From a virus, in IMG/VR virus record IMGVR_UViG_3300026519_000078, positions 1-20,364 of that record: a stretch of DNA of 20,364 nt, one strand, 5' to 3'. Shown here piece after piece: positions 6,204-10,101 of the stretch. Below the pieces are notes generated by a model that worked only from the letters and a program-made list of their open reading frames with translations, was not told the DNA's origin and did not search any database. Made by a program: the position numbers and the translations under genes. Every line of letters starts with the position of its first letter. Positions within the stretch are counted from its first letter, which is position 1.

Positions 6204-7434
6204 AAACCAGCACCTCGCGACCAGCGGGCAATATCAAAATATCATCGCCTTTTAAATTATTTGAGTCTACAAATAAATCGAACTTATCAACGCTTCCATA
6301 TTCGGTAATTGCGATCTCAATCGGCGCGCGCGCTTCTGACAGCAATATCATTTTCTCAACTGACAGATCAAAAGACCTGCTTAAAACATGACTCGCTGAT
6401 AGCGCAGCGATCTCAGACGACAACACAAAAGTTAGCGACTGGCTAAAATATTGACCTCCAATTAATTCATCATCAAAATTAGCCTGCGCAACGTCTAGGG
6501 CGTCGACTGTTTTCTTAAACTCCGCAAGTCCAAGCCCCGCAACCTCAACCGATTTTGCCCTTGTTTCATAGCGCCCGTTAACGCCTAGCGAGGATATTGC
6601 AGCGTTGCCAGACAGCATAAAAAGCTCTCGTATGGCCATCACGTTAAGGCCGGTTTGATCTGCAACCTCGTCCGGCAGCGCGCGCATCTTGTCTAAAAAA
6701 TCTCGTATCGGGCGGATCGCACCGAGCACATCACCCGTTATTTTAGCGGGCAACATCATGAGCGATTGTATCTGACCACCCAACACCGTGAGGTCAAGCG
6801 GCGACATGTTCATACTGTCGTTTATCCCCCTACGGATAGCCTCTGCCGCATCAGCGATCCCTTCAATTGCGCCCATAGCTGTGTCAAATATTGAGAGCGC
6901 TGATCGCGTTGAATTTTTAAGCGCATTAATTTCAGCAGCAGAGGATTGACTCGCCAAATTATTTAACTGGTCTAGCGCAGCCTCATCGAGTGACCGCTGT
7001 ATGCTCGCTATGCGTGCGGCAATTTGAGCCGGTGTAATTCTGATGCTTTTTTCTGCGGGGTGCATCCACTCGGTTTCAAAAACAGTGATGCTGCCAGACT
7101 CAACCGGCTCGATAGTTTCCCTTATTTTTATAGGCTGCAACGACAAAAGCCCTTTGGTTGGATGCGCGACGAGCCATGTGTTTTTACTGCTAAACGCGGC
7201 AAAGAACCGATCAGCTTCTAGGTCATTATCCGCGCCGTGGAAAGATAACGTAAGCGGATAACGAACACCCGCGATGCCTAAATCTTGGACGATCTCTCGA
7301 TCAACGTTTGGGTATTTAAAAACACCCAGTTGCTTTTCCAGCGTGCGTGTATTGCCTGACCAGCTTGGATTAAATACATGACCATCAGGCGAGGTTAGCT
7401 CAACTGATCCGCGCAGCCTGTCCAGCCAGCTCAC
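6196..7434 (-). CDS. DNA circulation / baseplate hub protein, Mu gpN-like
   Basis: A 412-residue protein whose first 115 residues are the DNA_circ_N domain: MSWLDRLRGSVELTSPDGHV, then LGVFKYPNVDREIVQDLG and YPLTLSFHGADNDLEADRF. In Mu, gpN is a hub-ring component; the 'DNA circulation' name comes from N-like proteins in which circularisation was proposed, so a structural role is the safer reading. The middle (about 150-330) is helical and of low conservation. The last 40 residues (DLFVDSNNLKGDDILILPAG) resemble a degenerate LysM-type tail end. GTG is the start: GTGA overlaps the tape measure stop. Confidence 0.85.
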   Translation of the reverse strand: MSWLDRLRGSVELTSPDGHVFNPSWSGNTRTLEKQLGVFKYPNVDREIVQDLGIAGVRYPLTLSFHGADNDLEADRFFAAFSSKNTWLVAHPTKGLLSLQPIKIRETIEPVESGSITVFETEWMHPAEKSIRITPAQIAARIASIQRSLDEAALDQLNNLASQSSAAEINALKNSTRSALSIFDTAMGAIEGIADAAEAIRRGINDSMNMSPLDLTVLGGQIQSLMMLPAKITGDVLGAIRPIRDFLDKMRALPDEVADQTGLNVMAIRELFMLSGNAAISSLGVNGRYETRAKSVEVAGLGLAEFKKTVDALDVAQANFDDELIGGQYFSQSLTFVLSSEIAALSASHVLSRSFDLSVEKMILLSEARAPIEIAITEYGSVDKFDLFVDSNNLKGDDILILPAGREVLVYV

Positions 7435-9164
7435 GCGTTGCGCCCTGCCAGCTCGACACGCACCGCCGGGGCACCGATCGTTTCGCTTTCGATTGTCGAT
7501 CCCGGTGGCGCGCCATTGATGTTCAGGTTGCCGTCAAACCTCACCCGCTGTGCCGCAACGCTTGCAACGTTCGGCGCTTGCCGCTCTACCTGCCGCTCAA
7601 CGACAGTACCACCGCCAAAAAAACCAGCCACTTTGTTAAAGAGGCCGAAACCGCTTTTGAAACCTGCGATGACCGCATCCCAATTGTCACGGAGCAATAT
7701 AACCCCTGCAACTAAAGCGCCAATCGCTACCGCAACAACAGCAATAGGGTTGGCCGCCATCGCAATATTAAGTAGCGCCATTGCTGCACCAGTCGCCTTT
7801 AAACCTGCGACGAGCTTCCACAGAAAAACAACTTTTGAGCCAACCGCAAACAAAATAAAGGCAGCATTGTAAGCAATGATCCCTGCCGCAATCCCATAAA
7901 ACAAGCCTTTCATCTTCACCAAAACATCAATGAATCCCATGACATTATCGCGCACTGAATCAAAATCAATCTCGCGCAGCCACGTCGTTAGCCCTTGTAT
8001 TGCAGGCTTAATCTTGCCATCAAACGTATCAAAGAATTTAAAACCAAGTTCTAACGCTGCTGATCTTAAACTTGCTAACTGATTCCCGAGCGAGTCCCTA
8101 ATAATATCAGCCATTGTTTTAGACTCGCCTGCTGAGTCAATAAGACTCTCACGGTATTCGCGCAACCCTGCTGATCCCTTTGATAGCAAAATATTAACGA
8201 GATTGATCGTCCTCGCGCCAAAGATCCTCGCTAATGCCGCACCGCGTTCAACGTCACCAAGCCCTTTTGTCCCTTTCTCAATGTCAGCAATAATGTCGAT
8301 TAAATCCCTAAAATTCCCGCTACCATCTTCGACAGTGACCCCAAGCATTTCAAGCGCGGCTGCGGCCTCTATTGTTGGATCAGTCAATCTCAACATAACA
8401 TTACGCATTGCCGTGCCAGCCTCTGTGCCTTTAAGTGCAGACCCTGCCGCAACACCTGCAATCGCTGCAAAGGTTTCAACCGACTGCCCTGACTTTTCAA
8501 ACTGCGAAGCGCCTTTGCCAACGGCCTCGAACAATAAATCAATATCAGTGTTGGCCGTTCGCGCCGTTTTAGCAAACACATCATTAATACGCGCGAGGTT
8601 GAGCGTGAGCTGAGTCGTATCGTCAACCATAAGATTAAATGCGCCGAGCGAGTCAGAGGCTATGTCTGTAGCGTTTGCTAAGTCTGTGTTAGCCGATGTC
8701 GCGAGGTCAACAACGCCCGGCAAAAGTTTGATAGCCTGCGCAGTGGTGAAGCCTGCCATCGCTAAAAACTCAAGGCCGCCCGCTGCTTGTGTTGCGGTGA
8801 ACTCCGTCGTTGCGCCAAGTTCACGCGCAAGCAGTTTCAACTCGCCAAGCGTGCTCATCCCAGCTTTTGTTGTTAGATCTAAATCTTTAAATTTTGCAGA
8901 GGCTGATGTGATTGCATCATCATACGCAATAAACTCAGTGGCCGTTGCAGATAGGCCGCGACGTAGCTGGTTAAGGCCGCCTTTCAGGATGTCAGTAAAT
9001 AAAATGCCTTTAACAATATCACCAAAGCGGGAACCAGCGCGTGACGCACGATTAAACGCTTTGTCTGCATTGTCACCAAAAACACCGGCCTGCCGACCCA
9101 TTTTGTTAAAGACCACCGAGACAGCATCAGTTGCTTTAAACACTGTAGATACAGCGTATTCCAT
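7431..9164 (-). CDS. Tail tape measure protein
   Basis: A 577-residue tape measure, which sets tail length and leaves with the DNA. Residues 1-60 (VFKATDAVSVVFNKMGRQAG) and 65-400 match the TMP core of Mu-like and P2-like phages: ARELGATTEFTATQAAGGLE, FLAMAGFTTAQAIKLLPGVV, GTAMRNVMLRLTDP and ARIFGARTINLVNIL are typical blocks. About 415-495 contain several hydrophobic segments (GIIAYNAAFILFAVG, ANPIAVVAVAIGALVAGVIL) that could insert in the host membrane, as known for many TMPs. A VVERQVERQ repeat precedes the end. No lysozyme or peptidase domain is visible. At roughly 1.5 angstrom per residue the tail would be about 85 nm; this is a rule-of-thumb inference. ATG follows the extension ORF stop directly (TAGATG). 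Confidence 0.92.
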   Translation of the reverse strand: MEYAVSTVFKATDAVSVVFNKMGRQAGVFGDNADKAFNRASRAGSRFGDIVKGILFTDILKGGLNQLRRGLSATATEFIAYDDAITSASAKFKDLDLTTKAGMSTLGELKLLARELGATTEFTATQAAGGLEFLAMAGFTTAQAIKLLPGVVDLATSANTDLANATDIASDSLGAFNLMVDDTTQLTLNLARINDVFAKTARTANTDIDLLFEAVGKGASQFEKSGQSVETFAAIAGVAAGSALKGTEAGTAMRNVMLRLTDPTIEAAAALEMLGVTVEDGSGNFRDLIDIIADIEKGTKGLGDVERGAALARIFGARTINLVNILLSKGSAGLREYRESLIDSAGESKTMADIIRDSLGNQLASLRSAALELGFKFFDTFDGKIKPAIQGLTTWLREIDFDSVRDNVMGFIDVLVKMKGLFYGIAAGIIAYNAAFILFAVGSKVVFLWKLVAGLKATGAAMALLNIAMAANPIAVVAVAIGALVAGVILLRDNWDAVIAGFKSGFGLFNKVAGFFGGGTVVERQVERQAPNVASVAAQRVRFDGNLNINGAPPGSTIESETIGAPAVRVELAGRNA

Positions 9165-9314
9165 CTAACCCTCCGCTGCCTTTTTTTCGGCTTTCACAAA
9201 AAGATCGTGCCATGACGACCAATACGAAAGCTGATGGTATTTCATTTTTTCTATCTCGCCGGGAGCACCCCCGCGCGAGAATATGTTACCCATAAACTGA
9301 TCAACGCGCGGCAC
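9165..9314 (-). CDS. Small ORF in -1 frame, possible tail assembly chaperone extension (gpT-like)
   Basis: This 49-codon frame lies between the chaperone and the tape measure genes, the exact position of the frameshifted second part (lambda gpT, P2 E', Mu gp42-type extension). Read in the -1 frame relative to the chaperone it gives FMGNIFSRGGAPGEIEKMKY followed by HQLSYWSSWHDLFVKAEKKA and a stop next to the TMP ATG. The frame is open without stop from 9389 to 9165, so it overlaps the chaperone end. It could be reached by a -1 frameshift between 9389 and 9314, or begin alone at GTG 9314-9312, where the chaperone stop and start share a base (TAGTG), or at ATG 9293-9291. No clear ribosome binding site precedes either. 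Coding character and position support a real product; the mode of translation is open. Confidence 0.6.
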   Translation of the reverse strand: MPRVDQFMGNIFSRGGAPGEIEKMKYHQLSYWSSWHDLFVKAEKKAAEG

Positions 9315-9730
9315 TACGCCTGCATTAAAAGTACGCCAATCGCCTCGGCGGTTGTTAGATCTTTCCCTTTGAGGTTTATAATCGCCGTTTCACCAAGACC
9401 ACTTAAAGAGCCAAGCAACGCATAAATCTTGCCGTAGTTGTCGCCTTCACTTTTTTTTCCCATCGCGATTTTAGACTCACCGCACAACTCAGCATACTCA
9501 ATCACTTCGCCAGTCTGAATAGTCTGCTTGATTTTAAGGTCGCCGTCTTCAATAATAACTTCTAATCGCTCGCGCCGGATCGCTTTAATTAGCTTTGATG
9601 ATGCCATGCTGACAGCCGCGCCAACCTCATCTGGTAGCGCTGAAATATCAACGTCGTAATGATCATAAAACACCTGCATCTGCAACGCGGCGGACTCTTT
9701 AGAGATCCCCATTTTAGTTACGTTTGTCAT
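9314..9730 (-). CDS. Tail assembly chaperone, Mu gp41-like
   Basis: About 138 residues, between tail tube and tape measure. Its expected role is to coat the tape measure during tail assembly (lambda gpG, P2 gpE). Recognisable parts are VGAAVSMASSKLIKAIRRER and a beta-hairpin (LEVIIEDGDLKIKQTIQ) and the helical end LGSLSGLGETAIINLKGKDL, a pattern known from Mu gp41-like chaperones. I take ATG 9730-9728, which overlaps the tube stop as ATGA and follows GGAAGGAG by 11 nt; a start seven codons further up would place its own codons on the ribosome binding site. A run of eight A (9451-9458 on the + strand as T) lies in the frame, but slippage there meets a stop. Confidence 0.8.
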   Translation of the reverse strand: MTNVTKMGISKESAALQMQVFYDHYDVDISALPDEVGAAVSMASSKLIKAIRRERLEVIIEDGDLKIKQTIQTGEVIEYAELCGESKIAMGKKSEGDNYGKIYALLGSLSGLGETAIINLKGKDLTTAEAIGVLLMQA

Positions 9731-10101
9731 GATGATAGAAACTCCTTCCATTCACCATCTGGAATGGCCGTAATTTCGACGGTGTTATTTTCAGATTCGT
9801 AATTGCCTAAACTGATCTGACCTACAGCCCGGTACACATCTCCAGCGGCAAGTTCATAAGACATTGGATAATTAGTTTTACGCTTAGATACTAGCGCCAA
9901 ACGGCTATACTCAGCCGCCGTAACAATGAGCTTAACGCCTTCGACTTGACCGACAGCAAGCGTGCGCTTGATCATTGTGCCGCCAGTATGCCGAATGCCC
10001 TCGGTCGTGACCTCCGGTGTCTTTGAAAAGTTAGCGTCCCCAGCAACGTTATATGTTACCGATGCAACTGTAAATCGACGTGGTGTACCTGCTAATGCCA
10101 T
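9727..10101 (-). CDS. Tail tube protein, Mu gpM-like
   Basis: A 124-residue tube subunit, the inner tube of the contractile tail that is driven through the outer membrane. Family features include the opening ALAGTPRRFTVASVTYNVAG, KTPEVTTEGIRHTGGTMIKR (about 29-47) and VEGVKLIVTAAEYSRLALVS, all typical for the Mu gpM / Phage_tail_tube family beta-barrel. It lies directly after the sheath gene with TAGGAG, made of the sheath stop codon and following bases, 9 nt before the ATG, a strong site fitting a protein needed in many copies. Confidence 0.9.
   Translation of the reverse strand: MALAGTPRRFTVASVTYNVAGDANFSKTPEVTTEGIRHTGGTMIKRTLAVGQVEGVKLIVTAAEYSRLALVSKRKTNYPMSYELAAGDVYRAVGQISLGNYESENNTVEITAIPDGEWKEFLSS

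Follow-up and report, generated by a model that had tools for sequence, protein, structure and literature searches.

A tail chaperone extension probably made by -1 frameshifting at a U_UUA tetramer in a contractile-tailed virus

Introduction

How is the extension of a tail assembly chaperone produced when the overlap between the two reading frames holds no slippery heptamer? In phage lambda, gpG and gpGT are linked by a -1 frameshift at GGGAAAG, and few ribosomes make the fusion. The question is raised here by a virus contig of 20,364 bases, analysed at its full length and called the window below, which carries a tail module of the contractile type on its minus strand. An initial annotation had described a -1 frame open from 9389 up to the base preceding the tape measure gene, in the normal place of a gpT-like extension, and had inferred an unusual production route from the missing heptamer. 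The coordinates of this frame hold; the route is the subject of what follows.

Gene order and relatives of the locus

All features described here lie on the minus strand. The sheath gene (11670-10114) is followed by the tail tube protein gene (9727..10101), named from a weak match to phrog_4699 (E=0.0036) and from its position between sheath and chaperone, as in annotated relatives. The zero-frame ORF of the gpG-like tail assembly chaperone (9314..9730) ends at a TAG at 9316-9314 and starts at 9730 or, alternatively, at 9751; the Shine-Dalgarno (SD) pairing at the ATG at 9730 is strong (-8.3 kcal/mol). The open -1 frame covers 9389-9165, with its stop TAG at 9167-9165, and the part past the slip site proposed below (about 9325-9165) would be the gpT-like extension. 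This frame ends one base ahead of the ATG at 9164 of the tail tape measure gene (7431..9164), whose product matches PF10145 (E=6e-40) and many PHROG tape-measure families. A short chaperone ORF between the tube and tape measure genes is the gene order of G/GT-type systems, and annotated relatives are arranged alike. Neither the chaperone nor the extension could be named with confidence from Pfam or PHROG.

The chaperone and tube proteins are too diverged to serve as queries and found no close relatives; we used the tape measure protein as an anchor instead. Its search recovered the cultured phages VP16T, VP16C, 97.13, 367.14, SFCi1, SppYZU01, CKB-S1, 1.009.O and AeroV_348, and PD0307 was found via the sheath; further relatives comprise many metagenomic contigs and a few MAGs. 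Throughout this first set, every member with upstream sequence has a chaperone and then, immediately ahead of the tape measure gene, a -1 extension. With the tape measure start of all loci located by tblastn, -1 chaperone/extension pairs were extracted automatically. Pairs were obtained from 226 of 249 loci and 144 were distinct; after exclusion of ten junctions of other chaperone families (for example, GGGAAAC and AAAAAAA types), 134 distinct homologous junctions remained.

In a tree of the tape measure protein, the window and the locus L032 are sisters (98% SH-aLRT) and L002 branches next (99%). The window's chaperone is homologous to those in the same position elsewhere (39% identity to that of L002, 32% to that of L004, and others). 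Its extension matches the -1 extension of L032, the nearest relative, at 61% identity over 49 residues, and that of L002 at 44% over 39 residues. Because extensions can be aligned in this way across relatives, as can the chaperones, we regard the extension as real coding sequence: an out-of-frame, overlapping reading frame before the tape measure gene, conserved as protein. Judged from these alignments, the open -1 frame does encode a true gpT-like extension, whose relatives are conserved, and the place assigned to it initially is supported by its homologs. Stops in this frame among relatives had been named as evidence against a product; past the slip site there are none, the frame being open in 134/134 junctions.

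An in-phase U_UUA tetramer at the homologous place

A scripted scan of the chaperone/extension overlap found no in-phase X_XXZ_ZZN heptamer, as the initial annotation had reported; its rule covered heptamers only and overlooked the Z_ZZN class. The 3' end of the window's chaperone reads GTA CTT TTA ATG CAG GCG TAG. Within it, the in-phase scan places a U_UUA tetramer at 9329-9326, in a candidate slip site CTT TTA (9326..9331) whose P-site codon would be CTT (9331-9329) and A-site codon TTA (9328-9326), the latter four codons before the stop. A second in-phase tetramer, A_AAC, lies 20 codons before the stop and is unlikely to be a slip site. Taken alone, a T_TTN is unremarkable in the window, where 153 occur in phase in 6247 codons, or about a 20% chance per 8 codons, with an AT-leaning Leu codon usage; it becomes significant through the relatives.

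The register of the window's T_TTA is that of the T_TTT in its sister L032 (GTT TTT CTT CTA GCG TAA) and of the first TTT in the T_TTT_TTG heptamer of L002 (GTT TTT TTG GCG GTG TAA); overall, the T_TTN of 133 of the 134 junctions shares it. The in-phase T_TTA thus stands at the place of the relatives' slip site, which leaves the proposal of an unusual route without support. Over the 134 junctions, an in-phase T_TTT_TTN (U_UUU_UUN) lies at most 8 codons from the chaperone stop in 104, a T_TTN tetramer only lies within the same distance in 29, the window included, and neither is present in one (L162). In other 8-codon windows of the same genes, the background rate of the heptamer is 0.26% and that of the tetramer alone 15%; in members that have no heptamer, T_TTN occurs in 17% of 8-codon windows. 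Of the 30 junctions without the heptamer, 29 still have a single-codon slip motif, a proportion to which we attach no formal probability, many junctions being related by descent. Parsimony on the tape-measure tree requires at least 20 changes between heptamer and its absence (shuffled labels: mean 27, minimum 22), which makes many of the cases independent. The Vibrio phages VP16T, VP16C, VP_EVC_2013, 1.009.O and CKB-S1 all carry CTT TTT ATT.

The window's own CTT TTA ATG recurs in eight distinct junctions of another subfamily (GCG/TCG/GTG CTT TTA ATG GAT TAG; L093, L098, L113, L157, L201, L202, L207 and L211, with L201 and L202 near-identical), whose chaperones end in LLMD; one of these junctions is from a Nitrospinota MAG. 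Two other members of the LLMD group have not kept it. L162 (IMGVR_UViG_3300033153_002379) reads GCC TTA TTA ATG GAT TAG and is the sole junction of the 134 that combines an intact -1 extension with no nearby in-phase T_TTN and no nearby start codon. L198 has CTA CTC at the site and CTT TTT two codons further upstream. These two cases mean that a T_TTN at this site is not absolutely required.

Exceptional junctions and annotations

Several loci depart from the common arrangement. In L048 and L131 (IMGVR_UViG_3300022680_000059), the junction reads GGC GTT TTG TTT CTG CAG GTC TAA AGT and it is the +1 (= -2) frame, not -1, that encodes the homologous extension (KVLHKVDQYMGYLFYRG...); our script scored this junction as a tetramer, though the true extension is in the other frame. 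Either another kind of shift operates here, as in Mu, for which a -2 shift has reportedly been described, or the contig contains an indel. The extension of L239 (1796-1997) is likewise in the +1 frame relative to its chaperone. Upstream of the tape measure gene, L060 and L142 (IMGVR_UViG_3300010392_000445) have one continuous frame of about 236 codons that runs right up to it, and no chaperone/extension pair was detected there; the two may be fused in this gene, or the protein may be unrelated.

Other loci bear on annotation. In VP16T and VP16C, orf15T and orf15C (locus 2887-2991) are annotated from an internal start, and the conserved extension begins some 100 bases upstream in the same frame; this region is probably the -1 extension of orf14. 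In AeroV_348 (2798-2989) and PD0307 (6213-6407), the extensions are annotated as separate genes from a GTG overlapping the TGA stop. The chaperones of both phages have a canonical in-phase T_TTT_TTN, and their extensions are probably frameshift products.

Proposed mechanism and candidate stimulators

The gene pair is real, conserved and of the ordinary kind, and it is the slip site that is non-canonical. The best reading of the locus, to which we give a probability of about 0.77, is G/GT-type -1 frameshifting on a Z_ZZN tetramer in place of a heptamer. From the comparison of junctions we infer slippage at CTT TTA as follows. Most ribosomes would read the chaperone through to the TAG at 9316-9314. 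In a minority, the tRNA-Leu on TTA (9328-9326) would re-pair with the TTT one base back, and the slipped ribosomes would continue in the -1 frame to 9165, and the resulting fusion of chaperone and extension would be about 185 residues long. CTT TTA would then be a reduced form of the U_UUU_UUN heptamer that most relatives have at the same place.

Two elements may raise the efficiency of the slip. The first is an SD-like GAGG (9343..9346), a candidate 5' stimulator 11 nt upstream of CTTTTA, which pairs with the anti-SD at -5.9 kcal/mol as compared with -2.7 kcal/mol in control windows upstream within the same gene. The second, a candidate 3' stimulator, is a GC-rich inverted repeat (9271..9311; CCGCGCG at 9311-9305 and CGCGCGG at 9277-9271), which together with its extended stem folds at -28.5 kcal/mol (z = -1.36). 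Neither reaches significance for the window alone. Family-wide, anti-SD pairing is better than in control windows over the 20 bases preceding the slip site (p=0.0003 for heptamer members, p=0.03 for tetramer members), and folding is better than in control windows over the 65 bases following it (p=3e-7 and p=0.02, respectively). We also considered that stimulators might compensate for the weaker motif; this comparison does not support it, as tetramer members are no stronger than heptamer members in either signal.

The main weakness of the frameshift reading is that U_UUA should be a poor slip site in E. coli, and it may be too weak here unless the host tRNA or the stimulators differ. No phage-encoded tRNA genes were found in the window. 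Pausing at a rare TTA was rejected, TTA being the commonest Leu codon of the window (24%).

Alternative routes to the extension

Termination at the TAG (9316-9314) followed by reinitiation at a GTG (9312..9314) would yield a separate 49-residue extension. The stop does share its G with this -1-frame GTG, as had been pointed out, and all of the extension's homologous part (RVDQ.MGN...) is downstream of TAGTG; restart after a stop also needs little SD. The SD pairing at the GTG (-2.5 kcal/mol) counts against restart, being no better than at random positions (mean -2.15); the tape measure has -10.0 and the chaperone -8.3. TAGTG occurs in no other tetramer junction. In 18 of these 29 junctions, the -1 frame contains no ATG, GTG or TTG between 6 codons ahead of the stop and 12 codons past it. 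The sister L032 has a single start, an ATG 8 codons in where other relatives have L, C or I, and the canonical heptamer is present in L002, which encodes the same protein. In the known systems, moreover, chaperone and extension have to be covalently fused. Restart cannot be the general mechanism of this phage family, and there is no sign that it is peculiar to this member; the stop-restart alternative put forward initially, with its unconserved GTG, is weakly supported and we consider it unlikely.

Even less probable is a decayed slip site, whether through a recent loss that has left the extension conserved, a defective prophage or an assembly error. U_UUA is indeed a weak motif in E. coli, and a 3-base difference in the T-run would restore U_UUU_UUA. 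However, the sister L032, likewise without a heptamer, has its extension intact; several tape-measure lineages maintain CTT TTA ATG alongside intact extensions; and in the window neither the chaperone frame nor the extension frame is broken. An assembly indel is an unnecessary assumption, given that L032 has the same frame arrangement and stop position.

Least probable of all is a frameshift elsewhere in the overlap, for example at AAAGGGAAAG (9370-9361) or at the A_AAC: the -1 frame, open from 9389, would permit an uninterrupted fusion, but upstream of the slip site it is closed in relatives, opening only 14 (L032), 9 (L002) and 9 (L034) codons ahead of the chaperone stop, and this speaks against slippage at a point as distant as AAAGGGAAAG. 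That sequence is out of phase, as first noted (the zero frame reads AAA GGG AAA G), and in no phase can the zero-frame tRNAs re-pair at -1. Its conservation, and that of TAGTG, had been suggested as a check; neither is conserved in the nearest relatives, L032 having TTA AAA AGC CAT in place of AAAGGGAAAG. The GGGAAAG was rejected as a slip site on these grounds.

Comparison with known frameshift systems

Frameshifting at the U_UUA tetramer remains our preferred reading and can be set beside several known cases. Lambda resembles the window in gene order and in the logic of a chaperone-extension fusion, and differs in its slip site: the window has GGGAAAG only out of phase and not conserved. VP16T, VP16C and their relatives belong to the same family by tape measure and chaperone homology; like the window, they have no heptamer and carry a tetramer in the same register, and they have no usable start codon. 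They differ in having U_UUU instead of U_UUA, and their extension, of an RTL-type branch, is only 6-7% identical to the window's.

In the account of P2 given in PMC3091744, gpE and gpE+E' arise by -1 frameshifting at TTTTTTG (Christie et al. 2002). As far as that description goes, P2 is comparable by layout and by site: it has a contractile tail, a short chaperone ORF and, immediately preceding the tape measure gene, a -1 extension; its T-rich slip site is near the chaperone end, and most of the window's relatives share its U_UUU_UUR heptamer. The window, with CTT TTA, differs from P2 as described there in allowing good re-pairing for the second codon only.

Z_ZZN tetramers are an established class of bacterial -1 sites, and all 16 have been tested in E. 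coli (Sharma et al. 2014, PMC4066793). In those tests U_UUA, backed by a strong pseudoknot, gave 1.8-3.6 times background, a range for four motifs grouped together, far below U_UUC and U_UUU; the tetramers of the IS1 and IS3 families are mainly A_AAG, U_UUC and U_UUU, with U_UUA among the weak ones (PMC4066793). These insertion sequence sites (PMC4066793) share with the window's proposed site a single re-pairing codon after the same base, the U_UUN type and possibly a dependence on stimulators; the window's gene is a tail chaperone. Nothing relevant came up when the literature was searched for a CUUUUA slip site.

Chaperone junctions that lack an expected motif have been met before. In the actinophage set of PRFect, the XXXYYY motif is absent from most annotated tail chaperone frameshifts, and 22 genomes have none of the program's motifs in the overlap (PMC10885494). 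The KS10 paper describes a Mu-like phage with no slip site found (PMC2628397). These reports make a missing heptamer a known annotation difficulty and not, by itself, evidence for a new mechanism.

Implications for the phage family

Searches restricted to X_XXZ_ZZN heptamers would miss about a fifth (29/134) of the tail chaperone fusions in this phage family. Where the slip site is missed, the extension is left unannotated or is given a wrong internal start, as in VP16T and VP16C.

We give even odds to a broader proposal: that the family's slip site has switched repeatedly from U_UUU_UUN heptamer to U_UUN tetramer or back, the tetramers including the U_UUA and U_UUG that barely work in E. coli, and that single-codon slippage is a regular and selected means of making tail chaperone fusions, its efficiency being supplied by stimulators or by the host tRNA-Leu. 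If the U_UUA and U_UUG sites work, the rules for bacterial -1 slippage derived from E. coli do not hold for these phage-host pairs, and the family would supply natural heptamer/tetramer pairs for measuring what makes up the difference.
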